Source: Erpobdella octoculata (lineage: Eukaryota > Annelida > Clitellata > Hirudinida > Erpobdellidae). Taken from it: a stretch of 64,000 bases of DNA. The stretch covers positions 41,409,134 through 41,473,133 of the forward strand of contig OZ022238.1 of the NCBI GenBank assembly GCA_963978895.1, in the 5' to 3' direction. Of this stretch, positions 11,107 to 63,431 are shown in pieces (the stretch's first letter is position 1; each line of letters begins with the position of its first letter). The translations under genes were made by a program, and so were the position numbers. A model generated the notes under the pieces. It was not told the origin of the DNA. It saw only the letters and a list, made by a program, of their open reading frames with translations, and ran no database searches.

Positions 11107-12460
11107 ATGGATTTGTCGTCTTCTACGAAGACGAAGAGTAAACGAGGACGACCCAAAGGATCTAAAAACAAAGTCAAATTAAATCTAGGTGACAAAAATG
11201 TATCAAGAACTACTACAGACTCCATTATCAATCAGTCTGATGATAAAAGTATGGATGTTGTCAGTCAAATGGAGTCATTCAGAAATTCGATTTTAGAAAA
11301 ACTCAAGCATGAATTATTTGGAGGTGAAAACAATGCCACTCTTCCTACTCCCCCAATGAATCTTTCTAACCTCTATTCATCACTGACAAATATGAGTCAA
11401 ACATTTGAAACACAATCATCTGTCGATAACAAAAATGTTCAAAACAAGCAAATACTTCGACAGTCAAAGGGGGACTCTAAGAGTAAGGTAGAGAAAAGTA
11501 TTTCCACTGACTCAAGTATGAAAGCTAACATCATTAATCCACACAAGAAAAAGGTCGGTCGTCCAAGACTTACTGAAAAACTGAAAATTAACTCATCATC
11601 GAAGATTGAGTTTGTTAAAGACCAAAATAATGATGAATTTTCTGTTCAAAAGTTTTCTTATTCCAACATTTCAAACTCTTCTCATGTAAGTGAATTTCCA
11701 ATAACTAAAGTTTCCCCATCAGAGCTGGTATCATCATCATCAAAGGAGTTGTCATCAAAAGTATTAGCACCTGTATCTTCATTACATCAAAAGCTTTTAC
11801 ATGTTGTTTCTCCTGCTAAGAATTGTCTACAACAATCTGATTCTGTTAAGTCAAATACTCTTGAAGAAAACCTATTTCTTAAAGGTTCTAAGACTGTTAC
11901 AGAAAAAAAGGTTACTGATTCTCAAAATGAGAGATTAGCTATTCCATCGGGCGACATTATTATGGAGACAAAAAAGAATATTTTAAAACCAAAAAACTCC
12001 ATTTCTTCGGTATGTCTTGAATCTTCCCATCCGAAACTAGAAGCTGTTGAAAAATTGCTTCAAGGTATGTCGTTATCTCCAGGCAAAAAGCATTCATCGA
12101 AAAATAAGTTGGAGGACGTGGATGACAACTGTTTAATTCTCGCTCGTATTTTCAGCAAAAGTGTTGTCAAACCAACAAGAAAAAGAAGTATTTTAGTTTC
12201 TAAACCGTCTTTCTCGAGAAAACTTCTGACATCGTATTCTTCGTTTTGCAAGTGGAAAATGAATAAAAAAATGAAATGTCAAGTGAATCACCAAACTGTT
12301 CCTGCTCATAAAAATATTTTCGGTGCTTCTTCCTCTAGAGTAGCTTGCTCATCAGAAAATAAAGCAAGTGAAGATGTTCCTGGTTCATCTTTAAACAACG
12401 AAGGTTTCATAAACTTGGGCGGTGTTTCAAAAACTCCTGTGAATTTTCATAATGATGAAG
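11107..12460 (+). CDS. ASH1-like exon 1: AT-hook N-terminus
   Basis: Starts with MDLSSSTK. A first AT-hook ([11 protein letters not shown], residues about 13-23) and a second (KKVGRPRL, about 148-155) predict minor-groove binding to AT-rich DNA. The rest is Ser/Lys-rich and probably disordered. The exon ends at GATGAAG followed by GCAAGAG. Reading through instead gives a premature stop at 12531. The GC donor keeps the frame into exon 2 (12582), whose start reads [12 protein letters not shown]. Confidence 0.8.
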
Positions 12461-15400
12461 GCAAGAGAGTTTTTATGATTGTTTATTTTGTATTATTTAC
12501 CTTTTTGCCTAATTTAAATTTTGATTTATAAAGAAATTGTTTTCTTAGAAAATTACTATGAAGCTTTTTATTTTGATACAGCTGGTATCAAGTGTTCTTC
12601 CATTGGAATTCAATGTCAAGATATTGAGAATAATTCATTATTATCATCATCAAATAAGAAATCAAATATTTTGAGTGACTCAACCACTCAAACAGATGAA
12701 CCTACGCACAAACAGCTGTTTGATATTTCCATTCAAACAGATATATCAGAGCAGCAATCAAGTTCTCTTCTATGTTTCAAATGTAAAGAACCTTACCAAA
12801 CAACAGACAAATCTCCGAGTAGGAATCAACCGGCTACTCCTTGCAAGGCTTCACTGAACGTGTCCTCCATATTTGCCACCAGTCTTTTAAATAATTTGAA
12901 CGTCACGATGAGTAAATTCGCAGAGATGTTCAACGAACTGCCAACATTTCTAAATGCGACCAACGCAGAGGAATTAACTCTCAATCTTCAGAACAAATTA
13001 ATGGACACGACATTTTTTAACGAACTTCTCTCAACAACAATGACGGACCTCCATGAAAAACTGAAGCAAAATGGTCCAGGATTAGAACTGGAAAGCATAC
13101 TGGCCAATGAACTCAATGCATTAGGTACCTCACAATACTTTGACGCTAGTTTGCACGCATTGTCCACTGAGGCAGAGATGAATGGTGGAAAATTGACAAA
13201 TGGTTTGAAAACATCTCTTAGGGGTGATTCCAATGAAGTTATTGTTCTAGATGCTTCTATTTCAGCACCTGATAAGCATAAAGAAGATAATATTGATCGA
13301 GTTAATCACGAATCTCATAAAATAAATCATGAACAATCAAAGGAACCGACGGTTGACTTGTCTCCGACCTGTGACGATGTGATCATTGGAGGAAACCTAC
13401 CCGATCTGAAACAAGTGGAGACTGTCTTCAGTGACTCATCTCAAAAGGATGAAGTTTCAAGTAATTCGCAAACTTTTGAAAATGTTACTCTGCTTGATGA
13501 AGCTTTCATTGATGGTTAGAATTTTTCAGTTTAATTTTCAATTGTAAGATATTTTCTTTTTAAATTATTTACAATTTTCTTCACTTATAATTGCAGAATC
13601 TACATTAATGGATGATAACAGCCACGTACCTGCCGATAATATTTTCCTAGAAAGTTCCTCCCCGGCTACTGTTACGGCAGCTCAGCGGAACGTGTTCAGC
13701 GGTTCCGATTTCGGCGCATCTCCGTGTGAGAAGCGACCAAAAAGAAAACGAATTAATGATGAGGTCGAATTTTCTGATTTGAGGACGAAAAAAAGCAGAA
13801 GAGATGATTCAGAGAAGACGCAGTATGAATATTTTTAATATGATACTGTGAACAAGAAAATCTTGAATTTATTCTTTTTTTTCAATTAATTTTAAAAATG
13901 TTGAAATATTTCCTCCTAGCAGTCAAAATGAAGCAAATCTGATGGCTCGTCCAGTTTCTGAATTGATTCAAAATTTTAGAAAGTTGGTGCATGTTTTAAA
14001 GAAATCTTTTTTTTTGTTTATGGAGAATAAATGTGAATAATTACTAAACAAATAAAATTAATATTGCATTCATCATTATAATTTAATTTTTTATTGGAAA
14101 TATATATATACTAGCAGTGCCCGTAGCGGCTTCGCTCGCATGAAATTAGAGAGTTTGAACCGTGCATCCATAGTAGAGATCAATTTTTTAGGTCTCGGCT
14201 CGGCCCGTCGACAACTTAGCCCAGCCCGTTTTAAAAACCCGAACTCCTGGCCCGGCACAGCCCGTCTGAATTAGGCCCGGCCCATTTTTACAGGCCTAGA
14301 AGTTCTATATACTTGATGAAAAACTTCGGCCCGTCCCACCTTGACCTCAGGTTTGGCCCGGCCAAACTGAAGACCCTAAAATCACTAAAATATCTATATA
14401 CTTGGTGAAAAGCCTCGGCCCGTCCCACTTTGATTTAAGGTTTGGCCTGGCCCGTGTGAAGACTCTAAAATAACGGCTTGGCCCGGCCGATGATAAACTG
14501 GACATAGCTACTTTTAACCGACACAAAACTTCAAAATACTAATTTTTACATTTGTAGCACTTACAGTTTGTGAGTAGCAGTTATTTTGAAATCAAATAAC
14601 CCTTATTTCCACCCCACATTTGAGGTCCTGGAAACCAAATTTTCAAAAAATGCTAAAACACGTATTTCATTATTTTTGGAGTAGAAACTAAATACTAATT
14701 TTTACTTCTGTAGCATTAACAGTTTTTGAGTAGCAGCTACTTTAAAAACCAAATAACCCAAAAAATGATGAAACACGTATATCTTCTTTTTTTTTGAGTA
14801 GATACTAAGTATTAATTTTTACATCTGTGGCAATTACAGTTGTTGAGTAGCAGTTACTTTAAAAACCAAATAACCCTATTTTCCACCCCACATTTGAAGT
14901 CCTGGAAACCAAATTTTAAAAAAATTGTGAAACCCGTATATCATTATTTTTAGAGTAGAAACTAAATTCTAATTTTTACTTTTGTAACATTAACAGTTTT
15001 TGAGTAGAAGCTACTTTAAAAACCAAATAACCCAATTTTCCAACCCACATTTGAGGTCCGGGAAACCAAATTTGTAAAAAATGGTGAAAAACGTATATCT
15101 TTATTTTTAGAAAAGAAACTAAATAATAATTTTTACATCTGTGGTATTTACTGTTTTTGAGTAGCAGTTACTATAAAAGACAATTAGCCTTATTTTCCAC
15201 CCCACATTTGAAGTCCTGGAAACCAAATTTTCAAAAAATGCTAGAACACGTATTTCATTATTTTTGGAGTAGAAACTAAATACTAATTTTTATTCCTGTA
15301 GCATTAACAGTTTTTGAGTAGAAGCTACTTTAAAAACCAAATAACCCAATTTTCCAACCCACATTGGAGGTCCGGGAAACCGAATTTTCAAAAAATGGTG

Positions 15401-16938
15401 AAACACGTATCTTTTTATTTTTCAAATAGAATCTATATACCAAATTTCAAAATCTCCTCATTTTTGGTTTTCGAGATATACATTGTTTTAGAAAAAAGTT
15501 TGTTTTCCAGTTTTTTCCCCTCAGGAGCAAAATTTTCAAAATTCCTTTCTTAGCGGATGTTTACGCTATAAAAGTAATATAAGTTCCAAATTTTACGTTC
15601 CTAGGATGAGGCGTTTGAGCTCGGCATTGATTATCAGTCAGTCATCAGTCAGTCAGTCATCAGTCAGTCAGTCAGTCAGTCAGTCAGGACATGTTCTTTT
15701 ATATATATAGATATATATATATATATATATGTATATATACTAGCTGACCCAGCAAACATTGTTTTGCCTAATAAATTATTTCGGTTTTCTTATTAAAATT
15801 TAATGTACAAAATTATGACAATTTAAAAAAATCGATATCAATCCTTCCCCGCACGCTCTCCCGTTCCAGCATGCTCTTCCGTTCCCGCTTGGTCTCCTGC
15901 TCCCGCTTGCTCTCTGTTCCCGCTTGCTAAGGTAGAATAAAGGAAAATGCACACATATATATATATATATATATATATAAATGAATGTTTGTATGTATGT
16001 ATGTATGTATGTATATAGGTATGTTATTCATGCATTGCTACACCATTCATCCGATCGTAATGAAATTTTAACACAACCTTGAGAGTCAAGGGGAATCAAA
16101 TATAGAGAAAAAAAATTTGAAATCCGTCACAAAATGAGTGGAGCGAGTGAGCGAGCGGGAACTATATATATATGTATGTGCGTATGTATGTGTGTATGTA
16201 TGTATGTGTATGTGCATGTATGTGTGTCTGTGTGTTTGTTTATGTATGTACTAGCGGAGATACCCGGCGTTGCCCGGGTTTTTTAGAGGTTTTTCTAATG
16301 TTTGTCTCTTTCTCTCCCGTTTCCTTTCCCACCTGCTTTCCCACTCCTGTTCGCTTTCCCGTTTTCGGTCGTTTTCCCGCTGCCGGTCGCTTTCCCGCTC
16401 CCGGTCGTTTTCCCGGTCGCTGTCCCGTTCCCGCTCACGTTTGCTCTCCCATTCCCACTCACGCTTGCTCTTCCGTTCCCGCTCGCTGTCCGCTCCATGT
16501 CGCTTTCCCGTTTCTATAATAGACAAACTAACCCACAAACATTCATATATATATATAGTCTTAGCAAATCTATTTTACGTTTTATAGGCTAACAGAAGTT
16601 ATGAAAGAATGGAAAAGAGAAAATGAGCATGAACGGGAACGGGAGAGCAACCGGGAATGGGAGAGCAAGCATGACCGGGAACGGGAGAGTAAGCGGGAAC
16701 GGGAAAGCGACCGGGAACGTGAAAGCGACTGGAATCGGGAGAGCAAGCTTGGAAGGAAATGCGAGCAAGAGAGAAAATCGATAACAAAACTTCTGAGCGG
16801 GAAAGCGACCGGGAGCTGGAAAACGACCGAGAGCGGAAAAGCGACCGGGAACGCAACGAAAACGGGAAAGTGGAGAAGGAAACGGGAGCGAGAGACAAAC
16901 ATTAGAAAAACCTCTAAAAACCCCGGGTAACCCCGCTA

Positions 16939-16993
<55 letters not shown>

Positions 16994-19900
16994 TCTGTTT
17001 TTCTGTCTGATTTTGGCCTATATATTATATATAAACTCCTCCAAGCTATTTTCTCAGTATTAATATTACTATATGAGCTATATTAACTTCCAGAGTTAGT
17101 ACTTCCTGTGGCAAACAATCAAACATGCTTACTACTTTTTCTTCTACGACTCCAACTTTTTCAATCGGAGCACAACAAACAATTACTGATATGCCAGTGC
17201 ATGATAAGAACTCTTTGGTATTTTATCTTTATTTTAATTTTGCTATTTTCTATTAATATTTTTAAAAAAATATTGCATTTTCATTACAGCATAAAAAGAC
17301 GAAAATAAAGTCTCCCGTTTACAAGAAAATAAAAAGATGTGAGAATATTTTAATACTTTCTGCCGTTAATACGCTTTAAAAGTAGTTTGATCGAAGCAAC
17401 TTAACAACATCTGATATGATTGTTGAGTGTGAGAATTCATAGCGGTAACTAAATTGACATGTTTATATTTTATATAAACAGGTACCTATGTTGATATTTT
17501 ATATAAACAGGTACCTATGTTGATATTTTATATAAACAGGTACCTATGTTGATATTTTATATAAACAGGTACCTATGTTTATATTTTATATAAACAGGTA
17601 CCTATGTTTATATTTTATATAAACAGGTACCTATGTTGATATTTTATATAAACAGGTACCTATGTTGATGCAAAGCCTGTGTGTAGAGATTACGAACCGC
17701 ACACTTGCAGTTGTAAGGTTGTTCGCCCGAACGATGCCAGTGAAGTCTGCTGCGGGGAGTCCTGTTTGAACCGTCTGGTTTATACCGAATGTCGACCTTC
17801 AACCTGTCCGACCGGTGAGAAATGCTCGAACAGAAGAATTCAGAAGAGACGTTGGATCGAGGGTCTTGTAAAATTCCAAACTAAAGACAGGGGGTACGGT
17901 GTTAAAACCCTCCAGACACTCGCATCAGGTTTTTTTTTGTTTAATTGTCGATCATTTTTTATGAATAATAGTTTTGTTTATCACCATCATGGTTTTTGGC
18001 CTGTGAATGATGCACGTTGTGTGGCAGGATGTTGAATTTGAAAATCTTAAGGAAATTAAAACACCTTCTAATATTAAAATTATTTTCAGGTCAGTTCATC
18101 ATCGAATATTGCGGTGAAGTAGTGAGTGAGAACGAGTTCCGAAGAAGGATGAGTCAGGAGTATAAAAACGAGAGACATCATTATTGTTTGAACCTCGACG
18201 GTGGAATGGTTATTGACGGTTATAAAATGGGAAACGTTAGTCGATTTATCAACCACTCCTGTCAACCAAACTGCATCATGGAGAAATGGTGAAATCTCGT
18301 TTATTTAATTATTAGTGATTATTATTAATCCAATTTGAGTAAGTCTTATTAAACATACGACCAAGTTGTTGATTTGGTTCTGGAGCATATAAAGCTGTTA
18401 ATTGTTAATAGGAGATTCTGTTTTCTTGCAGGAACGTAAATGGTATTTATAGAATGGGACTTTTTGCAATAGGAAATATTCCAGTCGGCACTGAGTTGAC
18501 ATACGATTACAATTTCCATGCTTACAACATGCTTTCTCAGGTTTACACGGTTCTCGTAACTGTTTTAAGTTTGTCATAAGTATGAATCCTACTTGAAATA
18601 TTATTACCGTGCAGCAAATATGCAAGTGCGGATCTCCTAACTGCAGAGGAGTGATGGGTGGAAAGAATCAGAGAATAAATAAAGAAATTAAACCCAGCAG
18701 CAAACCTGTTGCGAAAAAGCGAATGCCGAAAAGAGTGAGGCCTGGTTACATGAAGGTGTGTGTTTGTTGAAATTCTTTTGTATTATTTCAAGTTGTTTTT
18801 TCAAACTTTTTTTTCTCTCTTCCCAGTGATGATGGATATTTTGTTAAATTTTTTTATATATTAAGTTTTTTGCCACTTTTGTATGAATCATTATTGGATA
18901 TCGTTCTTATCATTATAATTAATTTTGATAGAATCCTCCAACAGTTCGGAGTAATGATACGATTCCAACAGCTGTTCCAGCATCTCTTCCAGTTTCATCA
19001 CTTTATCCATCTCCTCCTACTCCACTTCCTAACAGATCATATTCGAACAAAGAAAAACTTTTCGTGCAAAAACGAAAGCTCTTCCTAATAAGAAACGTAA
19101 AAAAAGTAAAACGTCGAAATTTGAAAGAAGTTCAGCTTAAGAATTCTTTCGGAGGAAATCAAAAAAATTCAATACCCAATAAAAAGAATAATAAAAAGAA
19201 TGTACCAAGAAAATATGGGAAATTCCTTCAATCCTTGCCAGGCTTGTTATATCTTTTAAATAATAATTAATTTTTGACTTATATAGGTGTAGGGTAAAGT
19301 GCTTAATTTTCACATTGGATGACTGGATTCAAATCATGTAGCTAATATCGTGTAGCTCTTTTAAGCAAGGAACTTACTCACATTGCTCAATTTTTGTGTT
19401 TAAGGAAAATAATTTCACCAACCTTAACAAAGATTTATTTTTTTCTTTTACCTTTGCTATTTCAGGTTTTGAAAAATTATTCAACTTAAAATTGAAGCAA
19501 TCAAGGTTGGATTTCTATTTTTATCTTTTTAAGCAATTTATATAAAATAAAATAAAATGTTATATTATATTTTTAATTTTGCATCTTGACATATATTTCA
19601 TATTTATAAAATTGTGGTTATCTGTTTGTTAGCTCATCTACTGTCATATAATTAACACCACTTACTTTTTATTTAACTTTTACTTTTCTGTACAAGCAGA
19701 GATGCAGACAGAAGATCCAATGAAGTTGTCGATACAGAAGATTCTCTCAGGGCAGCTTTCACAACTATCATCAACACAGTCTCTGATGCTGACAGTAGGT
19801 TTTTTTGTACATTTTATTAATTTTATTTTTAATTATTATTATTTACTATTTATATAATTAATAATTATAATTTACTATTTATATTATTGTTAATAATTAT

Positions 19901-22391
19901 CGTTTACTATTTATATTATTGTTAATAATTATCGTTTACTATTTATATTATTGTTAATAATTATCGTTTACTATTTATATTATCTATTACTATTGTTATT
20001 CTATATTAAAAGCAAAAAATTTTTTATTGATACTTGACATCATAACATTTCAGCTATGACTCTATTCAATGGTCATCCACCTCTTCAGTTGCTGCACTTG
20101 CCAAAGTTTGAGTTTTATATTATCTTTTTTTTTTAAATTTTAAATTTTTGCAATTATTAAAGTTTGATTCTTTTTATTCGTATGCAGAGTACTTTCTTTC
20201 ACATCCGAAATTCAGCAGCCCTCGAATATTACGGCGATATTAAACAACGTTCAGCTCAATCACTACAAAACGTTTCAGGACTTTAATAACGACTTCAACA
20301 AGTTGTTTACAGTTGTTCAAAATCATGGCTTGTTCAATTCCGATGTCGAAGATGCTGTTTTGCACGCCAGGCGCATCTATAGAGAAGCTTCCAGAGATGC
20401 GCTGTCCTTGTTCGGAGACGTCATTATGAAATCCGTGCCGTCCGACGTCGTGGAATCGACGCGTAAAAAGTCGCAAGTGAATGTCATGAATTCGCCCGAG
20501 AAAACGAGTAATTATGAAATTATTTCCAACGAATCCATTTCAGGTAAATTACAAAACATCTATTTAATTCCATCAAACATAATTGTTTGTTTCTATAAAA
20601 AATTTTTGTTTGTTTTCAAGAAAGCAAAAAAATGTCAGAAGAAGATAGTACTGAGGTAGAAGTAATACGATGCGTGTGCAATATTTATAAAGATGAGGGA
20701 CTTATGATCCAGTGCGAAATGTGTGAAGTTAGTTATGTTGAATTCATTATAATAATATAAATTTAAATCCTGTTGAGATTATGTTAGTGTCATCATGCCC
20801 TTCAATATTACTTTTGGACCACCAAATTACTAATGGCTTTCTCACTTCTATAGTTAATATAAAATTAGAACTAATATTTTTACTTATTTTTTATCAGTGT
20901 AATTGTAAACTAAAATAATAATTATCATTTACATGATCTCATGTGGTTTATTTTGTTCTACACGCATAAGAAAATTGTGAAACTTGATTGTAGAAATGGC
21001 AGCACTGCATGTGCATGAATGTCCAGGGTGATGAAGATCATTACTTGTGTGAACTTTGTGATCCACGCTCAATCAGCAAGGTTATATTTCTATTTAAAAG
21101 GCTTTAACAATGTTAAAGGCATTGATAGTCTGCATATATGTTTTTTTCTATATATATTTTTTAGACTCAATAAATAATAATAATTATTATATGTGTGTGT
21201 TTATATATGTATGTGTTTAACCATGCATGTGTCATTTTCTAGACCACATAATTTCTTATAAGTATTTTTATAATACACAAATATTATGCCAGGCATAATA
21301 TTCAATAAATACATTCAAATATACTTACTTTTCTTGAAATATTGAATAAATATCTGATTGATCGAGCCCTTCATTTTTAAAAGTTTTGTTTACAGGAGGT
21401 GCTCCTAAATCCACAGCCTGAAGATGCGCTAGCCCACTGTAGATACTACATGACTCTGATGAGGGACACCCAGATGCAGGTCAGGGTCGGGGACTGTGTT
21501 TACGTCACGCGAGAGGGATCAAATGTCGACATTGAATCATTCAGGAGCGCTAACAATCTGAATGAAATAAAAGAACAACTTGATATTTTCAGAGTGGAAA
21601 GACTTTGGAAGAAATACAAGTTCGATATTTTACATCCACATAATTTACTTTGATAAGATTTATCTAATTTTGTTATTTTCGTTGTTTGTTTAAATATTTA
21701 CTTTCTTATGTTTGTAGTGGAGATGGTTGTGCATTTGGTCATTATTACATGAGACCTCACGAAACCTTCCACGAGCCGAATCGAAAATTTTATCCAAACG
21801 AGGTATTCCGCGCTCCACTGTACCACGTAGTTCCACTTGATGCAATTATGGGCAACTGTTGTGTTTTGGATCCTGTCACTTATTGCAAGGTTAATCCTAA
21901 ACTGTTTTTTTTAATATTCATGTGACAATAGTCAGAAATAAATTAAAATATAGGTGATAATAACCAAACTGATATATATGACAATAGCCAGGCTAAATAT
22001 TTATGTTACAATAACCAGATTATTCATAAACTGGAAAATGTCACTATATCCAGGAGCCTGTTGGGTAATTTTTTGTCCACTTACTTCACTAGGGTCATCC
22101 GATTGATGTAAAGGCTGACGATGTGTACATTTGCGAGTACAGAGTGGACAAGACAGCTCGGCTTTTCTACAAAATAACAAGAACTAAGCATGTTGTAAAT
22201 ACGCAGCCATATTGTTTCCATAGATACGTTGACAAACTGAAGCCCAAAAGAACACAAATGGTCAGTATTAAAGTTTTTATAGTTATTTCAGTTGAAATTG
22301 ACTTTTTCATTAGAATTATTATGAAGTTTTTTAAACTTTTCCATTACAGATGCACCAGACAGATGATTTAATGTCAAATTCTCCCGGATAA
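11107..22391 (+). CDS. ASH1-like histone H3K36 methyltransferase, 20-exon model
   Basis: Exons joined by eye, all phase-consistent: 11107-12460, 12582-13514, 13597-13822, 13920-13986, 17290-17338, 17656-17928, 18090-18288, 18432-18540, 18615-18755, 18932-19241, 19466-19505, 19700-19794, 20054-20105, 20188-20543, 20621-20727, 20994-21080, 21396-21619, 21718-21889, 22093-22260, 22350-22391. They total 5004 nt (1667 residues), shorter than vertebrate ASH1L, mainly in the N-terminal part. Domain order is AT-hooks, AWS, SET, post-SET, bromodomain-like, PHD, BAH, which is unique to the ASH1/ASH1L family. The family methylates H3 Lys36 in the nucleus and counters Polycomb silencing. Exons 4, 10 and 11 are the least certain. 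The introns starting at 12461 and 19242 would use GC donors. Confidence 0.9.
12582..13986 (+). CDS. ASH1-like exons 2-4: Ser-rich linker
   Basis: Exon 2 (12582-13514) carries three Thr/Ser-x-Gln-Thr-Asp type motifs (IGIQC, TTQTD, SIQTD) and a helical stretch. Exon 3 (13597-13822) ends in a basic nuclear-localisation-like cluster, KRPKRKR. Exon 4 (13920 or 13923 to 13986) follows a TAGCAG double acceptor, and both choices keep the frame. Its donor TTG/GTGCAT is weak and this exon is moderately supported, but it is the only choice I found that joins in phase to 17290-17338. Confidence 0.65.
14111..15710 (+). mobile_element. Retroposon-like element in ASH1 intron 4
   Basis: Begins CTAGCAGTGCCCGTAGCGG and ends with an (AGTC)n tract at 15640-15687 followed by TTTTATATATATAGAT. 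Heads of CTAGC plus a GC-rich segment and TATATATAGAT tails recur in this window and look like RTE-type non-LTR derivatives. It contains a GGCCCGGCCC-rich section (14195-14490) and then tandem repeats. No coding capacity seen. Confidence 0.5.
14540..15430. repeat. About 155-bp tandem repeat, six units
   Basis: Units start near 14540, 14694, 14810, 14970, 15126 and 15281 at CTAATTTTTAC-like words. They share GAGTAGCAG, AACCAAATAACCC, CACCCCACATTTGA and GGAAACCAAATTTT in the same order. The second unit is about 40 bp short. Alternate units look more alike (TAGCATTAACAG versus TGGCAATTACAG types), suggesting an older two-unit duplication. Confidence 0.8.
15740..15955 (+). repeat. CTAGC-head retroposon fragment with CCCGTTCCCGC minisatellite
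   Basis: Starts CTAGCTGACCCAGCAAACAT, a head widespread in invertebrate genomes. It then carries several 18-bp-like CCCGTTCCCGCTTGCTCT units (15845-15930). It is followed by a TA/TATG microsatellite (15956-16012). Confidence 0.5.
16012..16250. repeat. TATG/TGTG microsatellite and retroposon debris
   Basis: Short copies of an AACACAACCTTGAGAG-like repeat lie between TA and TATG tracts (16160-16250). Not coding. Confidence 0.5.
16251..16545 (+). repeat. CTAGCGG-head element with CCCGTTCCCG minisatellite, left arm
   Basis: Begins CTAGCGGAGATACCCGGCGT, then a TTTTTAGAGGTTTTTC stretch and TAATGTTTGTCTCTTTC, then many CCCGTTCCCG/CGGTCGCTTTCCCG units with 12- to 18-bp periodicity. It is mirrored by 16596-16939. 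Translations give Arg/Glu/Ser or Ser/Arg repeats and are not genes. Confidence 0.75.
16596..16939 (-). repeat. Inverted partner of the 16251 element, right arm
   Basis: Its reverse complement starts CTAGCGGGGTTACCCGGGGT and follows the left arm through TTTTTAGAGGTTTTTC and TAATGTTTGTCTCTCGC into the same minisatellite. It therefore forms a large imperfect inverted repeat with 16251-16545 around a 50-bp centre. A (TA)n tract follows at 16939-16990. Confidence 0.75.
17290..17338 (+). CDS. ASH1-like exon 5: pre-AWS linker
   Basis: Acceptor TTTTCATTACAG, donor GAT/GTGAGA. Encodes [16 protein letters not shown]. The last residues resemble the Tyr-Lys-x-Ile-Lys segment just before the AWS domain of ASH1L. 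The exon joins in phase to the GT-ACC-TAT-GTT start of exon 6 (TYVDAKP). Confidence 0.75.
17460..17668. repeat. 29-bp tandem repeat containing the exon 6 acceptor, seven copies
   Basis: The unit, of the form TGATATTTTATATAAACAGGTACCTATGT, occurs seven times without gaps. Two units have TTT in place of TGA. Each contains ATATAAACAG followed by GTACCTATGTT, the intron/exon boundary of exon 6. Only the last copy runs into the AWS coding sequence (GATGCAAAGCC), so the first six are duplicated splice junctions. See the finding. Confidence 0.9.
17656..18755 (+). CDS. ASH1-like exons 6-9: AWS, SET and post-SET domains
   Basis: AWS: CSCKV, then [22 protein letters not shown] and SNRRIQ supply the zinc-binding cysteines (17690-17850). 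[40 protein letters not shown], then [11 protein letters not shown] (the NHSC cofactor/knot motif) and ELTYDYNFH (catalytic Tyr region). Post-[17 protein letters not shown] with three zinc cysteines. No key residue is missing, so the enzyme should be active. Exon borders are fixed by homology: G/GTTTTT, TG/GTGAAA, CAG/GTTTAC and AAG/GTGTGT. Confidence 0.95.
18932..20543 (+). CDS. ASH1-like exons 10-14: linker and bromodomain-like region
   Basis: Exon 10 begins NPPTVRSND and contains [18 protein letters not shown], a block conserved in ASH1L after post-SET. It ends, in my model, at CCAG/GCTTGT (GC donor) at 19241. Exon 11 is only 40 nt. Exons 12-14 encode a divergent bromodomain: [52 protein letters not shown] and [14 protein letters not shown]. 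The helix order fits the family, but the acetyl-lysine pocket is poorly conserved, as in other ASH1 proteins, so ligand binding is doubtful. Confidence 0.75.
19848..19990. repeat. 32-bp AT-rich tandem repeat in ASH1 intron 12
   Basis: About four units of TTTACTATTTATATTATTGT followed by TAATAATTATCG. It lies between the exons at 19700-19794 and 20054-20105. Confidence 0.8.
20621..21080 (+). CDS. ASH1-like exons 15-16: PHD finger
   Basis: Residues [20 protein letters not shown] (exon 15) and [13 protein letters not shown] plus YLCELCDPR (exon 16) supply a complete Cys4-His-Cys3 zinc-binding set. ASH1-family PHD fingers sit between the bromodomain and BAH and help nucleosome contact. The intron splits the finger at CE/KW with a GTTAGT donor. 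Confidence 0.95.
21396..22260 (+). CDS. ASH1-like exons 17-19: BAH domain
   Basis: Starts after PHD with [19 protein letters not shown], then VRVGDCVYV and [13 protein letters not shown]. Next come the conserved [29 protein letters not shown] and [11 protein letters not shown], and finally [17 protein letters not shown]. This is the canonical BAH fold sequence of ASH1, a chromatin-interaction module. A short last exon (22350-22391) adds [13 protein letters not shown] and the stop. Confidence 0.95.
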
Positions 22392-23925: not shown

Positions 23926-24089
23926 TGGGGAAATGCGCGAACGCATATCCCCGCTATCAAAAATAACGCACCCGAGTTACCCACATTTGTGGTAATCGCA
24001 GGAATCAACCCGCCCTCTGTGCAATGGACGGGCCTCCACCTGAGGGAACCGTCTGCGTGATCACGATCTCCCCTGTGCCAGGTTAGTAT
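23926..24089 (-). ncRNA. U1 spliceosomal RNA gene variant (U1-D, position-6 A)
   Basis: On the minus strand, 164 nt from 24089 read ATACTAACCTGG, the 5'-splice-site recognition end with A instead of T at position 6. Stem-loop I has the loop word GATCACGCAG (70K-binding type). Stem-loop II has ATTGCAC (U1A-binding loop). Then come GCGATTACCACAAATG (stem III), an Sm site (ATTTTTG), and stem IV GGGGATATGCGTTCGCGCAT closing with TTTCCCC. Length and order match canonical U1. It lies just outside the triplicated unit, so it is single-copy in this window. A TATA-like ATTAAAA lies at -30. It could be a functional variant or an early pseudogene; all protein-binding loops look intact. Confidence 0.85.
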
Positions 24090-24112
24090 GAAAAGCGTCG
24101 CGCACGTCGCCA

Positions 24113-25579: not shown

Positions 25580-25743
25580 AAACTTACCTGGCGCAGGAGA
25601 CACCGTGATCACCGAGACGGTTCTCCCGGTTGGAGGCTAGCTCATTGCACCGATGAGCATGCTGAACTCTGCGATTGCCCCAAATGCGGGCAACTCGGGC
25701 GCGTCATTTTTGCCTTAAGGGAGCTGCGTTCGCGCCTTTCCCT
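25580..25743 (+). ncRNA. U1 spliceosomal RNA gene U1-A, unit 1
   Basis: 164 nt starting AAACTTACCTGG (position 2 is A instead of T; the splice-site pairing core ACTTACCTG is intact). Landmarks: stem-loop I loop GATCACCGAG, stem-loop II ATTGCACCG, stem III CTGCGATTGCCCCAAATG, Sm site ATTTTTG, stem IV GGGAGCTGCGTTCGCGCCTT closing with TCCC. The length equals canonical U1. A 3'-box-like sequence follows at 25752-25770. U1 RNA recognises 5' splice sites in the nucleus. Confidence 0.92.
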
Positions 25744-25751
25744 TTTTATAA

Positions 25752-25959: not shown

Positions 25960-26123
25960 TAAGGAGATGCGCGAACGCAACTCCACGCCGTCAGAAATTA
26001 CGCACCCGAGTTACCCGCATTTGGAGTAATCGCAAGACTCAACTCGCCCACGGTGCAATGGACGAGCCTCCTCCCGGGGCAACCGCCTTCTTGATTACGG
26101 TTATCCCTGTGCCAAGTAAGTAT
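25960..26123 (-). ncRNA. U1 spliceosomal RNA gene U1-B, unit 1 (position-9 T)
   Basis: Minus strand, 164 nt from 26123. The 5' end ATACTTACTTGG has T in place of C at position 9, so it would pair with A at -1 of a 5' splice site. Loop I is AATCAAGAAGG (first G lost), loop II ATTGCACCG, stem III TTGCGATTACTCCAAATG, Sm site AATTTCTG (less canonical), stem IV GGAGTTGCGTTCGCGCATCT. The weaker Sm site and loop I change make it the most likely pseudogene of the four. Confidence 0.85.
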
Positions 26124-26899: not shown

Positions 26900-27063
26900 A
26901 AACTTACCTGGCGTAGGAGATACCGTGATCAAGAAAGCGGTTCTCCCAGTTGGAGGCCCGTCCATTGCACCAAGGACGTCGCTGACTTCTGCGATTACCA
27001 CTAATGCGGTAACTCGGGCGCGTTATTTTTGTGTGCGGGGATCTGCGTACGCGCATTTCCCTT
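26900..27063 (+). ncRNA. U1 spliceosomal RNA gene U1-C, unit 1
   Basis: 164 nt starting AAACTTACCTGG like U1-A. Loop I GATCAAGAAAG, loop II ATTGCACCA, stem III CTGCGATTACCACTAATG, Sm site ATTTTTG, stem IV GGGGATCTGCGTACGCGCAT with TTTCCC. Its body is closer to U1-D than to U1-A, but its 5' end is like U1-A. Confidence 0.9.
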
Positions 27064-38655: not shown

Positions 38656-38819
38656 AAACTTACCTGGCGCAGGAGACACCGTGATCACCGAGACGGTTCT
38701 CCCGGTTGGAGGCTAGCTCATTGCACCGATGAGCATGCTGAACTCTGCGATTGCCCCAAATGCGGGCAACTCGGGCGCGTCATTTTTGCCTTAAGGGAGC
38801 TGCGTTCGCGCCTTTCCCT
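38656..38819 (+). ncRNA. U1-A snRNA gene, unit 2
   Basis: Counterpart of 25580-25743, including the -30 CATATGA word and the 3'-box-like sequence. Confidence 0.9.
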
Positions 38820-39035: not shown

Positions 39036-39199
39036 TAAGGAGATGCGCGAACGCAACTCCACGCCGTCAGAAATTACGCACCCGAGTTACCCGCATTTGG
39101 AGTAATCGCAAGACTCAACTCGCCCACGGTGCAATGGACGAGCCTCCTCCCGGGGCAACCGCCTTCTTGATTACGGTTATCCCTGTGCCAAGTAAGTAT
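39036..39199 (-). ncRNA. U1-B snRNA gene, unit 2
   Basis: Counterpart of 25960-26123, with the same position-9 T. Confidence 0.83.
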
Positions 39200-39975: not shown

Positions 39976-40139
39976 AAACTTACCTGGCGTAGGAGATACC
40001 GTGATCAAGAAAGCGGTTCTCCCAGTTGGAGGCCCGTCCATTGCACCAAGGACGTCGCTGACTTCTGCGATTACCACTAATGCGGTAACTCGGGCGCGTT
40101 ATTTTTGTGTGCGGGGATCTGCGTACGCGCATTTCCCTT
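39976..40139 (+). ncRNA. U1-C snRNA gene, unit 2
   Basis: Counterpart of 26900-27063. Confidence 0.88.
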
Positions 40140-54147: not shown

Positions 54148-54504
54148 ACATACATACATACATACATACATACATACATACATACATACATACATACATA
54201 CATACATACATACATACATACATACATACATACATACATACATACATACATACATACATACATACATACATACATACATACATACATACATACATACATA
54301 CATACATACATACATACATACATACATACATACATACATACATACATACATACATACATACATACATACATACATACATACATACATACATACATACATA
54401 CATACATACATACATACATACATACATACATACATACATACGTACGTACGTACGTACGTACGTACGTACGTACGTACGTACGTACGTACGTATGTATGTA
54501 TGTA
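54148..54504. repeat. (CATA)73(CGTA)13(TGTA)3 array, unit 3
   Basis: 357 bp. Shortest CATA block and longest CGTA block of the three. Confidence 0.97.
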
Positions 54505-55340
54505 TTTTAGCCGCATACGATCTACCTAGTGTGATCTAGACTGGAGTATAATGAAGAAAAAGTTTCCGCTGGAATTTTTTTAAAGAAATCTAGTTAACAC
54601 GCAAACTCCATAAATAAGTTTGCCATTTAATTATTTTATGTTGAATAATATAATTATGCTGAATAATAGAATAATATAATAATGGAGCTAGGATTGATAT
54701 TGACTTTAAGCTGTTTGTTTATCAAGATCGTATATTCAAATATGTTTCCATTCCCGCGAAACATAAATAAATACAACCTAAGTCCTAAGCATATTAAACA
54801 TGTTGGGACAGGTTCCCCTTTTTAATTCACGAACGATGTAAGATAAGGAAACAAATTTCTCGTTTATTTTAGTTTTTAGTCTGCGTAACTGTGTAACTTA
54901 ACTAACTTGACTAGTAGTTTTAAATAGTTAAGTTAAAAAATATAGGCGTTTGGCGTTTAGTAATTAATGTAATTAGTAATTAGTTAGCTAATTTAGAAGT
55001 TTTTTTTAGTAATAGGTATATTCTGCCGTTTGTTTTTTCGACTGAATTTAAAAGCTGCATTTCTAGTTTGGAGAAGTAATTTGTACTGTTTGTTTTAGCT
55101 AGAGCTAGCTTGTTAGTAGTTTCCATATCATATGGGTCTGCTCACTCAAATATATCTAATAGCTAATCATCTACTCTTAATAAATAATAATATAATTGAA
55201 TAAACATTCTAGATAAATATATATACACAAATAATAAAAGGTTTTAGATTTTTGAAACTGTTTACTTTTTATACTAATAGTTTTTCTCTGGATTAATAGA
55301 AAAGAGTTTTAATGTTATATTACATGTTTATTAATTACAG

Positions 55341-58300
55341 ATTACAAGCCTTGAAAACATCTAATAATTCATAATGTCTAAACAGCAAAAGGTTATTTTA
55401 ATGATTTTACTGCTACTTTGTTACTTCACATGGTTTCTTGAATGTGTCTGTCTAACATTTAATTATTCCAGTTTGAAATACAACAAAAAGAATTTCTTGA
55501 TCAATTCTTTCCTGACGTCATCAGAACCAATCAGCCTATTTCACTGCTCGCCAATAAGTTTTCAAGTTACATAATTGGCGATGATCGTTCTCTTGAAGAT
55601 AATGTTAGTACTGTTTAAGTTGTTGTTAATAATAATTTATAAAAAAATAATTGGCTTTGCATATTATTATTTTTTCAGTGCACAGTAAATAAAAGTTCAG
55701 AAAAGCCATCATCTCAAGAGAGTTATAAAAGGTCTATCAAGCTTAAGCCAGGTGTGTTTGATGCTCAGGATTTCCTTGTCTTATTTTTCATAGAAAGCTT
55801 TAAGTACTTTGTACGACAAAGAACTCATCGAGACTTATATTTTAAGTACAATCTCGTCTGCAACACATCATCAAGCAATCTTGTTGACAAAAAGGAATGC
55901 TGGTTAATGGTTTTTGCTCTGAAACTAGTGTGAAAGTGTTATGATAAGGCACTGAAGTCATGAATATTTTAAAACTATACCAGCTACTTATAGTAATTTT
56001 ATAACCATTTGGAGTACTAAACAACTGAGTTCTCATTGTATTTACAGCTGTGATTTTACATCAATGTTTGATATAGTGTAATTAATTTATATTGTATTAT
56101 AAGCTGATACTGATAATATTAATAATAGTAATGATAATACTAATTATATATATCTTTCTCCTTTCACTTTTTTGCTGTTTATGGGATTAAGTAATTAAAC
56201 GAAAATAATGATTTTTTTAACTACCAATAACTGGTTAATTTATTAAAATACTTTAAATTATATTTATATTTATTTCAGGTTTTGTTTTAAACCCAGTTCC
56301 GCATAATATTAGCAATGATTCTGGAGAGGTTAAAGACAAAATAAAGAAAGGTTTTGTTCCAAGTGAAGGTTCACATATTTAAATATTCTTTCATTTCTTA
56401 AGTATCTTTAATTATTTATTGGTTAATTCTTATTCGGTTTGGCAGAGACTCGCGTTAGAGTTGCTGGGCTTGTAGAAAAACAAAAGAAAAATTATTTTTC
56501 CGGTGCTCTCGATGAATCGATTCATGTAAATTCATCACATCATTTTCCTCGAGAGAGTAACAATTTTGCATCGTTAAATCCCGATTCGAGCAGAGCAGAA
56601 ACAACCGGAGAATTCCCGGAAAAGAGAAATCATTTCGAACCGGACGATAATATTCCTAACGTTAAAGTAGAAAAATCTCGAAACGTCTTGAAACGAAAAA
56701 TCGCACAATGTAAAGAACCTCCGTCTTACAAAGGTTTTTTTAAGATGAGATAAAAGTGTTTTTAATTCTAAAAATAATCCCAAACATCATTTGTTTATTC
56801 ATAAATAATAAATATTTTTAATAATCAATACAGGATTCAGTACTGTCTCACATGATTTGTCATTGAATAAAGGAAATGTTACTTCCATTGATGGTGCAGT
56901 TTTCACTTTATTGAAACCTGAATTTGAGTTGCGATTTTGTCATTAAAATAAATTTTCTTTTAAGTTACTAGTTAATTAATTCAATCATGATTATTGAATG
57001 TAGCATTTGTTAAAATATTTCCATTTTAGGACAAACAAGTTCACAGAAAAATATTGCAAAGACAAGCATTAAAAATCCTTCAGCTGATAAAACCAGATTA
57101 AAAGAATCAAATGCTGCCGATGGTATCTGTTTATTGTATTGTCCATGTTTGATTAAAAATAGCTCAGGCTAGAAATTAAATTTTATATAAATATATGACA
57201 TGATGGCTGTCAGCAGCTTGGAATAATTTTTTTTTATATTTAAATTATTTTTCAGATAACATTCGTTGTTGGAAGCAGGGTCAAAAGTTAATCAACCAGC
57301 ACTTGAAGAAACCAAAAATTTCTTCTCAAGAACATTCTGGTTCTCCATCCTCATCATCAAAGGCTTCTCACCTAGAACACAAAAAAGGTTCAACTCTTTC
57401 TAATTCTTCCAGTCCCAGATCAGGGACGGTTGAAGACCTGAAATTAGATCGTGAGGTTGAAAAAACGTTTAAAAGAATTGCATCCAAAGAAGCAGAAATT
57501 GTCACTGCAACCAGCTCTAGATTGGCGAAAGTTGAAGAATTGAAACAGACGAATGAGAGGAGAGAGAAATCTAAAAGTTTTAAACCAAAAGAAGCGGAAG
57601 CTTATATTAGAAATGATCCGATTTTAAGTAAAGAGATGCAAAGTTAGCTATGATTTTGTAAAGAACAAGGAGTTTTAGTTGTTGATTGTTTTTTAAATTA
57701 TGATAATTATTTTATGTAGATGTATTTAAATGATTTATTGGATTATTAAATATAGGAAGAAAGAAATGATTGTGATTCTGCACATTCGTTACAGGTGCAG
57801 AATTCCCGCATTCAAGAATGGCAAAAGTACATCACAAGATCAAATTAAACCATGAAAAAATTCTTCCAGCTGGTTATTATTAGTTAAGTTATTTTGGACA
57901 AAGTTTTAGAAAATATTTTTTATTGGGTGTTTTGCAATTTCAGTTGAAGATAAATCCGAGAAGAAACGAAACTACGATTCCGAAGAAATAAAAAAGTTCA
58001 TGAATCTAAAGAAAGCCGAAAAACGAAAGCAGAAATTAGAATTCGTAGCCGATGAAAAAAAGAAGCTTAGCGAAAAACAGCAGATGTTGTCCAGACTGCA
58101 ACAGCACCAGAAGGACATTTTTCAAGCAACTGGAAAGAAAATTGTGACTCATTCAAAAGACGGAAATCTCAGCGTTGAAGCACCTCCATCCACGTCTTGG
58201 GAAGAAATATTTTCTGCTCTGAACTCTCAGAAAATTGTCCACGAGTCAACAAGAGAAGTAAACATTAATTATTCTGTAACAAAAATATCTTGATTGAGTT

Positions 58301-61300
58301 TGTGTGATTTATTTGTATATATTGTTTGTCTTGAAGGTTCAGAAAGATGTTTCTGTAACTACTACCAGTCAATTCATAACATCTTCAAATGTTCAATCTG
58401 TCTTGATGGTGAAAACCAATAAGTTAGATTTTTTTCAAATTCTTTTGATTATCTTTTTTGGTTTTTATTTAGATAGTTGTTTTTATATTTTTCGTTGGTT
58501 ACATTTTAGTAGTTTTTATTTGCATTAGTTTTTTTTCTGTTGTCAAATTCTAAAGAATCTCAACATCCCATGACATATCTCAAATGAAAGATATTGTTTC
58601 CTATCTCGATAAGAAAGACCACCAACTCTCCATGCATAAAGGTTGGTTTTGTTCTAATTTTATTCAAAACCCAGTTTGCTTTGGTCCTATATTTTTTTCT
58701 TCAGGCAATTATGACAAAATTTTCACAATCTGTTGATTTCCTTTCAGTTGATTTATAAATTTGTAAGCTTGCGATATTTCCGACAAGATATCCAGTTATC
58801 GTTTACTTTCTTTGAAGGTGTGTCTGTAACAGGTGAGAGCAAAGTCGCCGAGCGCCTTAAAGGTCTCCACAAATCAGCCAAGCTGCTCACATCGAAATTG
58901 AACATGCACTTTTCTGTGTTACTTGAAGGTATATATTTAAATGTTTATTTATTTTATAAGATTTAATTTTATTGGTTTTATTAATTTTCATTGATTTTTT
59001 ATCTTTAGTTTATTTTTTTCGTTATTGTAAATTTTGTTTTAATTTTCTTATCAAGGTAGTAGTTGTGCCCAAGCCAGTTTGAGAGAACTTAGTCAATCTT
59101 CAGATTTGAGTAAATTCCTTCCCAAGTCACAAAATACATCAATTTCTGCAGTTCATTCAACCACAATCGCATCATCATCATTACCACAGGTTCAAATTTT
59201 TGCATAGTTGTATTGTAAAAGTTTGAAAAGAATTTTTAAAGTGGCCCCACAGTCGAACGAGCTTCGGTTTATTTGTAAAATTGTTAGTACTTTTTTTTTT
59301 TAGCAAAGTTGAAGTTCATTTACATAAGTTTGATTCTTATTTTCATTGTGATTACATGTTTATAAACAGGCAATGGTTGTAAACACGAATTCTAAAGATG
59401 TTTTCTCATCTTTCGAAGGTTTTACTTTTTCAAAACCACAAATTTCTGAGATTCCTAACAGGTTTGTGTTATCAATAATATTGCTTGTTTTAGTCTATCA
59501 ATTTAAAGTTTTTTTATTTATTTCATGTTAATTTATATTATAAATAATACATCATAAATATTTATTTACTAGCAAGGCTACCCAGCCTTGCCTGGGTTTC
59601 TTTTAGGTTTTTTTCTCGTTTTTTGATGATACAACGTAAAATTGTTTAATGATTTTTTCGAAATTGCTCAATAAAGACTATCTCCATGCAAAATTCCGTT
59701 CAAGTTGCTCCAGCGTTTTAGATATGATAAGCGAACACACACATTGCCTTTTACTTACATATATAGATTAGTTATTTCTTAATAGTTATCTAATGATTAA
59801 TTTCCTTGCGACTGTTATTAATATGAGGCTGAATTCTATCTAATAGAATCTTTATATATTTATTTATTCATTCATATATTTACAGCCTCTCTGCTGCCCC
59901 AGTGTCTGTGGTTAGTTTTTTGTTTCTGCAATTATTTTCTTTTAAAAAGTTAAGGTGAATCAGTCAGTTGTGATATAGTTTTCAATCATATATATAATTT
60001 TAATATATCATGAAAATAAATATTGTTTTGAAATATAATTTAAGATTCAATGATTTTTGTTTGTGGCTTGATAATTTAAAGGATGTTGTGATTTTATTTT
60101 ATCAACTTAATCACAAGTAAGTCAATTTGAGAAATGTTGAACTACTAGATGAGATTTTGGCTAGATTTTTTTTTATCCTGTTGATTGATAAGTTCAATTA
60201 TGTGAGCAGTTTAAGTGCTGCAGCCATCTCATCTCAGCATCATCTTATTGAGATCATTAATACATTATTATTTAAGTTTTGTTATCTTTAATTTGATGCC
60301 AAAATATTTCTTCCGGGCTCAAAGTTATTTATTTCTATTTTTTTATTTACTTATTATTTTTCAGAGCTTTGCAAATTCCAACTGTAAGACTGCCAGCCTC
60401 AAACCAGCAGAAACTCTTAAATATTTCAGGTTTATAGTTGTTTAATCGTCTCAATGTTTTAGCGATTTATTTTTTTGTTCTACTCTACTTGTCCATTCAT
60501 AGTTTAATTTCTATTTATTCTATTAAATGTTTATTTAAAATATTTTTGAAACACATTGGTATGAGAAATGTTAACTAGGGTGTCATCTCATGGTGGAAAC
60601 TATCACAGAATGTTTTTTTGTTTTGAGACTTAAAACTACTACAGTGAGTGTTTCTTGAGAGAGGAATAGTGAGTGACACAATAAATTTTATTTTAATTTT
60701 CATGCATAATGCAATTGTGGTCTCAAAGGACTCCAGTTGGTTTGATTAAGATGTAAAACATGTTGGACACATGAGCGCTCTAATAAAGATTAGTAAATAA
60801 TTTTTAAGACAACTGTTTGTAATGTGTAGATTATTTTTTATTTTTTATTTTATTGTTAACTAGAATTCCCGAGAATTTGAAAGATCTAGATGATTCTTTG
60901 TCTCAAGGTATGCATTACTTATTTATAGTTAGTGATTGTATGACATCCTAATGTTGAACTTGTTTGGAATTGCTTATTTGATTTGTTTATGCTCAATTTT
61001 ATTTTGAAAAAAAAATAATGAAAAGTAGAATCAACATTTAACATATTTAAAAGTTGAGAAAGTAAAATAGAAACAAGTAATTTATTCTGCTTGATCAAAA
61101 ATTGAATAAACGATTAATAACATTTCATGATTTGCTTGTTTTGTATCAGTTGATGTATTATTTAATTTGTTGCTTGTTGCACTAGCTGTACTGTCGTTTG
61201 TGTGAGATACGTATTTTGTTGTTTATTTACAACATTGTATTGTATTGTTAACATATGATATGTGTTTCGATGTTTATGTATATTATGTGATTTATTGTTA

Positions 61301-63076
61301 ACATATGATATATGTTTCGATGTTTATGTGTAATACGTAATGTATTGTTAACATATGATATCTGTTTCTATGTTTGTGTACATTATGTGATTTATTGTTA
61401 ACATATGATATGTGTTAACATATTGTTAACATATGATATGTGTTTCAATGTTTATATATATTATGTGATTTATTCTTAACATATTATATGTGTTTTGATG
61501 CTTTTGTATAGTATGTAATGTACTGTTAACATATGATATGTGTTTCGTTATTTATTTATGACTCATGTTGTATTGTACTTTAAATGCATGACATGTTTTC
61601 CAATAATACATTAACTACTTAAATCATTCAAATTGTAGCATAAACATTAATTACTTCATAACATATTCTTATTTCTTCATGACTCCCTCTGGTGCCTGTT
61701 TCCAACCCATGCGTGTAACCATCTAAATTTATTTTTTTTTAAAGACACCCTGGTCAGTACTACAACTTCAGACAGAGATCTGGATTCCTTTCCGAGAGAC
61801 ATGTTCCCATCGCAAGACCTTCGTAAAAAACTGAGCAAACAAGTTTCTGTTGGTAATTTAACGCGGATGGCATCTGCTCACGAGGAATTCGCTGGTAATT
61901 TCAACCAATTCTATTCAATTAATAATTCAATTTATGAAATTTATGCTCCTCGAAGCAATTATAAGAAATCTTGTATGACTGACTGTGCAGTACTGATGGG
62001 CTTCAAGTTGAAGTTATAAGCATAAAAATGAATGAAAACTCAATATTAATAAAAAGAGTTGTTTGTTTATTATTTTAATGTTTTTTTTTATAATTTGGGA
62101 GTTATTGGTTAATTAAGGTTCAAAAGGTCACCTGTCATTTGGAGCTGACGATGCATTCAACGAATTCACTATGAAACTTTTTCAATCGGTTATGACAGAA
62201 GATGATGCAAGACTGAAATATCAGGTGATTTTCCCTTCAATTTAGTTGTTTATATTAAGTTCAAAGCTTCTCTTGAATTAAAACATTTTAAAGTTTTTTC
62301 TATAAAATTTAAAACTTCTCATAAACATTACGGTTTTTTCCCAATAACGTTACAGACATCGATGAGCCAGATACGACAGCAGGCAATGGATGGTCACTCG
62401 AGATCTGTGTCAAGAGAAAGAAAATCTAACTCAAAAACGTTTATCAAGAAAGGAGCAGATGAAATCTATCCAATTGCGATGAAGGAGTTTCGTTCTCCTC
62501 CTGTTGTGGTTTGTTTGTATATTGTCTCCTTGAATTCGCAGATTGATCTAAAACTGAAAAGCAGTCATTGTTGACAATTAGGTCTTGAATTGTATGTTAC
62601 TGACAACAAATTTGTCTCGGGGGAGGAAAAGGATATATAGTGATGGATAAATTTGTAACTTAATTCATACCCTGCAAATGACGGCAACGTGACTAAACTT
62701 TCGTTATTCAGAAAAGTCACAGCAGAATGGACCGCAATGCGACCGACAGGATGACATTCCTCAACATGTCCGACTCCGACGCGTCAGCTGTTTCAGTCGA
62801 TCAGGTTGGTGACAATTTTATTTGTATTTAATTTAAAAGATTTTAAACTCGTGTCAATTTGTTTGTATTTTAATTTAAAATTAAATCTGTGTTAATTATT
62901 TTGTTCCAGACCATTAGTGAATACTCAGATTCGATAACATCTGAAAATGATCTGAACCCAGAAGGTTGGTTTCACTTTTTATATGCATGTAATTATTTCT
63001 GATATATATATATATATTATTTGTTTATTTGTCAACATATCTGCATAATGAAATGAAATGTCAACAGGGAGACTAC

Positions 63077-63136
<60 letters not shown>

Positions 63137-63431
63137 TATATTAGTAATTATAGTAATTAATTTTCTCCCTAGGTAGAAAAAGGTTGCCTCGGGAATTTAA
63201 CTTGAAACTCGGAGAAAAGTAAATTGTCTTATTTTTATTAAATTTGTTTTTTTAATAATTTATTCTTCTTTGAACATTTGCAAAGATACTTAACAAAAAA
63301 GGAACAAATGTTGAAACAAAGAAAGGAAAAACTTCTCGACCTTTTGAAAAGATTTAAACATTTAAACGAAGAAGAAGAAGAAGTTAAACGATTGGAGTTG
63401 GAAGCCAAAAAGAAATTGAGAGCAGTTTCAG
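55341..63431 (+). CDS. CEP350-like centrosomal protein, unit 3: the copy with its native continuation (partial)
   Basis: Exons of copy 1 at +26,088 (ATG 55374). The last visible exon is 63286-63431, which continues past the duplicated part as EAKKKLRAVS and ends at TCAG/GTTTGT. This is therefore the only copy with the rest of the gene downstream, beyond the window. The visible part is about 975 residues: Ser/Lys-rich with basic and acidic coiled-coil segments. Phase is kept at all introns. If the family call is right, the missing downstream part should include a CAP-Gly domain near the C-terminus. Confidence 0.65.

Follow-up and report, generated by a model that had tools for sequence, protein, structure and literature searches.

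U1 RNA genes with A at position 6 and frequent T at intron position +3 in the leech Erpobdella octoculata

The 5' end of U1 small nuclear RNA (snRNA), ACUUACC, is regarded as near universal, and its sixth letter pairs opposite intron letter +3 of the 5' splice site (donor), a position that in animals is generally said to hold A or G. The animal donor consensus is given as GURAG-type (PMC11732430), and in the excerpts of the relevant reports used here the U1 5' end is described as unchanged even where donors have changed (PMC10581693, PMC13326754): a switch at +4 in Saccharomycotina has been associated with the loss of METTL16/SNRNP27K (PMC10581693, PMC11732430), and for Fritillaria borealis the authors state that its splicing did not change by way of a divergent U1 (PMC13326754). 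The present analysis concerns 64,000 nucleotides from the leech Erpobdella octoculata (assembly GCA_963978895.1, contig OZ022238.1, positions 41,409,134 to 41,473,133 of the forward strand; this whole stretch is the window), which carries an ASH1-like gene, a CEP350-like gene and several U1 genes, one of which, U1-D, has A at position 6 (A6; T6 denotes T at this position). A preliminary description of the window had put forward that the 5'-splice-site code of this lineage shifted together with a U1 variant. The U1 side of this proposal turned out to be stronger than could be known at that time and the side on which the code shifted to GTTAGT weaker, and a widened code, with A6 U1 as a plausible but unproven cause, fits the data better than a shifted one.

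Genome-wide here means the entire 386-Mb assembly with its 94 contigs, the window residing on the contig labelled C1. The COX1 encoded on contig C94, when TGA is read as tryptophan, shares 505 of 512 residues with the Erpobdella octoculata record, so that the animal is most likely a leech (Hirudinea) belonging to Erpobdella. An exact 16-base pattern, which U1 genes with other changes escape, was run over the whole genome together with a reversed-pattern control and matched 110 sites with T at position 6 (control 0), 30 with A (control 1) and one with C or G (control 1); the letters that exceed the control level at this position are T and A, and C and G do not. This collection of U1 genes and of their A6 proportion, which the preliminary description had named as a check, was followed to the single gene: 27 of the 30 A6 matches were confirmed as U1 either by reading or with Infernal (Rfam covariance model RF00003, gathering cut-off 69.5 bits), three were left unread (C7 17.70 Mb, C7 17.76 Mb and one on C8), and one more A6 gene outside the pattern brings the confirmed number to 28. 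The bulk of the matches, 24 of 30, lie within a tandem array at C7:16.587-16.657 Mb (loci L007-L030), 23 of them read and one scored by Infernal at 125.9 bits; with the gene outside the pattern, the array has 25 confirmed A6 genes. The confirmed A6 genes outside the array are U1-D in the window, L064 (C1:41530693), and one belonging to a separate U1 cluster on C4 (L005). Over the 24 array loci there are 95 U1 genes, comprising 24 that start with AUACUUACUU (T6, with U at position 9, U9), 47 of two kinds that start with AAACUUACC (T6) and 24 that start with AUACUAACC (A6), the last falling into four nearly identical sequences, and the most regular array unit measures 2.76 kb and contains four U1 genes, one of each kind, one of them A6.

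Because the A6 genes read ACUAACC at the 5' end, not the canonical ACUUACC, they are referred to here as a U1 variant. All those scored exceed the gathering cut-off, with 125.9-131.2 bits for the array A6 genes (loci scanned), 131.1 for U1-D, 118.3 for L064 and 144.6 for the C4 gene. The motifs AUUGCAC in the loop of stem-loop II and AUUUUUG, which we take to be the U1A and Sm sites, respectively, are present in the array A6 genes, in U1-D and in the C4 gene, while L064 reads AUCGCAC. In addition, A6 and other U1 genes have an upstream element in common: ACACC is located 56-58 bases upstream in each of the 15 U1 genes inspected, which include four A6 genes, a placement that would be expected by chance within an 11-base slot in about 0.6% of cases. 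The A6 U1 genes form a genuine and conserved class with many copies, of which no report was found in the titles and abstracts of the literature searched, the searches not having been aimed at leeches. The 5' ends in the C7 array vary also at position 9, where U9 is predicted to pair with -1A, and at position 2 (A2). L064 is a second dispersed A6 gene on contig C1, about 97 kb from U1-D, and adjoins another U1 match (91.2 bits).

Ten U1 matches (RF00003) are found in the window, namely U1-D and nine T6 genes of three types, each type being present three times. U1-D (23926-24089, minus strand) begins with AUACUAACC and has ACACC at -57, in agreement with the A6 that the preliminary description had read there. 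Two of the T6 types, at 25580-25744 (plus strand, AAACUUACC, further copies at 38656 and 51724) and at 25960-26123 (minus strand, T6 with U9, AUACUUACUU, further copies at 39036 and 52104), each resemble one array gene, and the third is located at 26900-27063 (plus strand, AAACUUACC, further copies at 39976 and 53044). A tandem repeat of 13.07 kb spans 24239-63404 in three copies (starting at about 24239, 37315 and 50383) with 99.7-99.97% identity by self-BLAST, and every copy holds three U1 genes together with the 5' portion of the CEP350-like gene, in which all but the last of the 24 modelled donors are located; this triplication is either a very recent amplification or an assembly artefact. 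The four U1 types of the window look like a dispersed copy of the C7 array unit, and U1-D like a copy of its A6 gene. There are eight differences between U1-D and the array A6 gene, and of the 46 pairs of the model, 42 are standard in U1-D and 41 in the array gene. U1-D and the C4 A6 gene retain their base pairs better than under random substitution, fewer than 1% of random substitutions doing as well in the case of U1-D. That U1-D is a degenerate gene or pseudogene was rejected as the main reading, given its 25-copy counterpart in the array and the retained pairing; the window copy itself may be a fading dispersed copy. The yeast branch-site consensus is UACUAAC; the same letters are contained in the 5' end of U1-D (24082-24088, minus strand), so that pairing of A6 U1 with the U2 branch-recognition stretch is conceivable.

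Homologous proteins were aligned to the ASH1-like gene with a spliced aligner of our own, the sole preference of which is for GT/GC-AG introns. The model of the ASH1-like gene (11107-22389, plus strand) has 15 donors, the exons at about 18.9-20.6 kb being left out, compared with 19 in the preliminary description; 14 are GT donors, with T in eight, A in two, G in three and C in one at +3, and one is a GC donor at 12460. ASH1L (PDB 8vlh) aligns with the PHD-BAH exons once these are joined, and molluscs, an annelid and a nemertean are among the top named matches of the ASH1 search. Seven junctions were recovered with at least six of 11 homologous proteins, five with T and two with G at +3. The five are GTTTAC in the SET/post-SET region (18541-18546), GTTAGT following the PHD exon (20728-20733) and GTTATA (21081-21086), each fixed by all 11 homologues, GTTCGA (21620-21625, 10 of 11) and GTTAAT (21890-21895, six of 11), all on the plus strand. 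Nine junctions backed by one of the 11 homologues were set aside. The donor coordinates 17929, 18541, 20728 and 21890 of the preliminary description recur in the rebuilt models, the last three being among the junctions fixed by homology; 17928 is among the nine junctions set aside. The last copy of the CEP350-like gene (55374-63431, plus strand; 949 codons, no stop) has 24 donors, with T in 15, A in six and G in three. In both genes together T occupies +3 in 23 of 38 GT donors (A 8, G 6, C 1), so that the frequent T at +3 described earlier (26 of 44 donors) is confirmed.

Sixteen dynein heavy-chain genes from outside the window, gathered by a Pfam AAA_6 search, were spliced-aligned to an intronless dynein of the same genome, which contributes no donors, and to one another. 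Junctions with fewer than two supporting references or a flank score below 12 were excluded, and the 95 introns obtained at first rose to 114 when four stretches were added, one of the 20 later junctions (locus L062) being dropped since its own sequence was among its supports. Two junctions of the poorly aligned locus L068 were retained, loci L049, L050 and L052 were left out as identical with genes L060, L042 and L045, an HSP70-like gene in locus L036 was not used, and the dynein matches at C3 10.67 Mb, C6 5.4 Mb, C6 30.7 Mb and C8 12.7 Mb lie outside the sample. The 114 introns have 108 GT and six GC donors; among the former, +3 is T in 50, A in 33, G in 22 and C in three cases, and all 16 genes have donors with T. 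Three of the six GC donors, which come from loci L053, L058, L059 and L062, likewise have T at +3, and their number is high by comparison with the 0.87% given for human GC donors (PMC11732430). The intronless dynein (L041, C5:16795094-16796071) has an unbroken frame of 3139 codons among intron-rich paralogues and is perhaps a retrocopy.

When the two window genes and the 16 dyneins are pooled, 146 GT donors from 18 genes have T in 73, A in 41, G in 28 and C in four cases at +3; only one of the three copies of the 13.07-kb repeat was entered after self-BLAST, which excludes an inflation of the counts by the triplicated CEP350 donors. The background is provided by the bases following GT within the dynein introns (n = 1416; T.416, A.251, G.219, C.114); neither the triplication nor the T background of.42 had been noticed in the preliminary description. 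Against this background C is depleted (.03 where.11 is expected, p = 2e-4). The purine preference usual in animals is gone at +3, C is still avoided, and there is no recoding to T. Since C remains at 3% where 11% is expected, +3 is still read. The share of T lies far outside the GURAG-type consensus, and because it drops under stricter support it is stated here as a third to a half. The T+3 donors have A at -2 in.73, G at -1 in.81 and G at +5 in.53, the corresponding values for A+3 donors being.63,.59 and.41. With G at -1 in 81% and at +5 in 53%, most T+3 donors are evidently genuine, and mis-called junctions were rejected as the main cause of T at +3, as these two positions equal or exceed those of the A+3 donors; some junction error may inflate the share of T, since it falls with stricter support. 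The AG//GUNNN class is defined by strong -2A and -1G with +3 to +5 free; T+3 donors have.73 and.81 at the former two positions and +4 at background, but with G in.53 their +5 is not free.

The +3 composition matches a U1 pool that pairs with A, G and U and not with C. Most U1 genes, with U at position 6, would pair with A, or by wobble with G, and roughly one gene copy in five, being A6, would pair with U, so that with both kinds present A, G and U could be bound but C could not. As the pool could bind all letters but C, selection at +3 would have eased until any letter except C was accepted where a purine had been required, and the AT-rich base composition would then have lifted T to between a third and a half of donors. 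To this account, in which a mixed pool of T6 and A6 U1 relaxed +3 and composition raised T, we assign close to an even chance. We infer that A6 U1 is transcribed, enters U1 small nuclear ribonucleoproteins and recognises T+3 donors. That two abundant U1 populations divide the introns between them, U1 with U at position 6 taking A or G and A6 U1 taking U at +3, is distinctly possible and is put forward tentatively.

U1 pairing was used to score donors against intronic GT decoys (area under the curve, AUC; energies in fixed register). T6 and A6 together reach an AUC of.865, compared with.850 for T6 alone, a gain of.015 (95%.001 to.030), while T6 combined with a made-up G6 or C6 gives.848 and.825, respectively. 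If the best of the T6, A6, T6/U9 and A2 ends is taken, mean pairing is -4.57 kcal/mol for T+3 and -4.54 kcal/mol for A+3 donors, and with T6 alone it is -1.73 and -2.30 kcal/mol. A at -1 occurs in 13 of 41 A+3 donors (.32) and in 11 of 73 T+3 donors (.15); that T6/U9 U1 pairs with -1A at A+3 donors is suggestive only.

Several results weigh against A6 U1 as the reader of T+3 donors. T at +3 is barely above composition (.46 in the dyneins and.61 in the window vs.42; p =.044 pooled and.33 for the dyneins alone), with the caveat that wrong junctions would likewise resemble background. Among the first 90 dynein GT donors its share drops from 39/90 over 25/62, 20/53 and 16/44 to 12/35 when at least two, five, eight, 10 and 12 references, respectively, support the junction, A being slightly more frequent than T in the strict sets. 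An A6 U1 with U at position 5 should favour A at +4, and therefore the lack of a clear preference counts against it: +4A follows GTT in 20 of 73 donors (.27; background.20, p =.14) and in none of the 16 T+3 dynein donors with at least 10 references. GTTAGT, the full match to U1-D, accounts for five of the 146 donors, the commonest hexamers being GTTTGT (12), GTTGGT (8) and GTGAGT (8). Over all sites A6 alone separates donors worse than T6 alone (.835 vs.850), within GTT sites it does no better than the other versions (A6.891, T6.895, G6.899, C6.894), and a hypothetical G6 binds T+3 donors as well as A6 does (-3.90 vs -3.88 kcal/mol). On the side of the genes, A6 makes up only about a fifth of U1 matches, and no double compensatory change was found among the eight sites at which the array A6 gene and U1-D differ. 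Further, the usual U1 loop I, the U1-70K site, is GAUCANGAAG; the C4 A6 gene has this usual loop (GAUCACGAAG), whereas the array and window A6 genes have GAUCACGCAG, one letter off the usual loop. As a speculation, the pairing and the weak +4A could be brought into line if A6 U1 had lost a pseudouridine at its position 5. The earlier proposal of a shifted code consequently stands as regards T at +3, present in 16 of 16 dynein genes, and the high-copy A6 class, and falls short where GTTAGT, +4A and the T background are concerned.

The same data bear on a plain relaxation at +3, by which T6 U1 would read all donors, U at +3 being a tolerated mismatch for which the exon-terminal AG and +5G make up (the AG//GUNNN class), with AT-rich composition accounting for the remainder and A6 U1 as an unrelated variant. 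T near background is what this would give, and +4A is favoured solely with A or G at +3 (.61 after GTA and.64 after GTG, with backgrounds of.31 and.36; 43 of 69 combined,.62), as expected if a mismatch at +3 breaks the helix; a negative coupling of +3T and +4A has been described in plants too (PMC10599564, as far as the part used here goes). In line with compensation at the exon end, T+3 donors carry -1G more often than A+3 donors (59/73 vs 24/41, p =.015), and no version of U1 outperforms another within GTT sites. However, with C at 3% instead of 11% the letter at +3 evidently still matters for recognition, T+3 donors are overall no stronger at the remaining positions (mean matches of six: T 3.81, A 3.58, G 4.12; 128 donors), and the high-copy conserved A6 class would be left unexplained. 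Because GTTAGT is rare, +4A weak, separation at GTT sites equal and the coupling seen in plants, this relaxation stays a serious rival, albeit one that we regard as less probable than the mixed pool.

Alternatively, the choice of donors could be led by U6 snRNA, its ACAGA stretch deciding together with U5 snRNA, so that donors like GTTTGT (12 of 146) are favoured by their match to U6. By the pairing scheme assumed here GTTTGT is complementary to ACAGA with one wobble, and U6 is canonical, with ACAGAGA, in all four loci read out of 48 scored, on which ground a changed U6 snRNA was rejected. But C at +3 would pair best with G44 of U6 and yet is depleted, which makes U6 unlikely as the reader of this position; moreover, +4T in GTT donors is at background level (.44; background.49), and a METTL16-family gene (PF05971) is present, a loss of METTL16 being rejected as well. 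We consider a choice led by U6 improbable. Many U6 genes reside in a large array at C7:7.307-7.544 Mb, often spaced by about 4.2 kb and with equal scores among the matches listed.

Finally, A6 U1 might be expressed but act elsewhere, on few introns or in shielding transcripts from early polyadenylation, its match to the donors being a coincidence. Human variant U1s are described as acting on selected targets in the portions of the reports considered (PMC5159530, PMC13172311). This role sits poorly with A6 accounting for roughly one in five U1 matches and with the altered letter being just the one that matches the donor change, and such a role is likewise unlikely.

Further anchors for donors were sought and dropped: the C-terminus of the CEP350-like gene, where the long conserved-looking part is a single open frame, and a gene of Tudor-like look as judged by eye. 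Three pieces from this attempt, searched against Pfam, gave no match. An open reading frame of 890 codons at 5028-7700 of the window (minus strand) is by appearance, again judged by eye, a non-LTR retrotransposon.

A genome in which many near-identical A6 U1 genes coexist with numerous donors bearing the matching U would allow the co-evolution of U1 and splice sites to be tested directly in an animal. If the two U1 populations do divide the introns, this would be a natural case of a U1 5'-end change that fits a genome-wide donor change. For the annotation of leech genes, programs trained on GTRAG can be expected to overlook a large number of donors.

The comparison with known systems has to be made with those parts of the respective reports on which the following statements rest. 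Like the A6 genes, the human variant U1s (vU1.3/.4, vU1.8) are U1 paralogues altered in the 5' end or the protein-binding loops (PMC13172311, PMC5159530); for vU1.3/.4 a C-to-T change was proposed to permit AT donors, and no linked genome-wide shift of donors was found in these parts (PMC13172311, PMC5159530). The genome of the diplonemid S. specki likewise contains two classes of U1 that are unlike at the 5' end, the alternative U1 having a C-run end, but its canonical donors pair comparably with both U1s (PMC12621601). In Erpobdella a single letter sets the second class apart, and it matches between a third and a half of donors. F. borealis is likewise an animal with splice sites altered genome-wide; it differs in having two U1 versions with identical 5' ends, and m6A on U1 has been proposed there (PMC13326754). 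The switch from +4A to +4U in Saccharomycotina is similarly an evolutionary change at one intronic donor position, yet ACUUACC is invariant there wherever U1 was found (PMC10581693), and in contrast to the loss linked to that switch Erpobdella keeps its METTL16-family gene. The leech donors divide into AG//GTT and GTRA kinds, as in the scheme of PMC11732430, with T making up a third to a half of +3 in Erpobdella.

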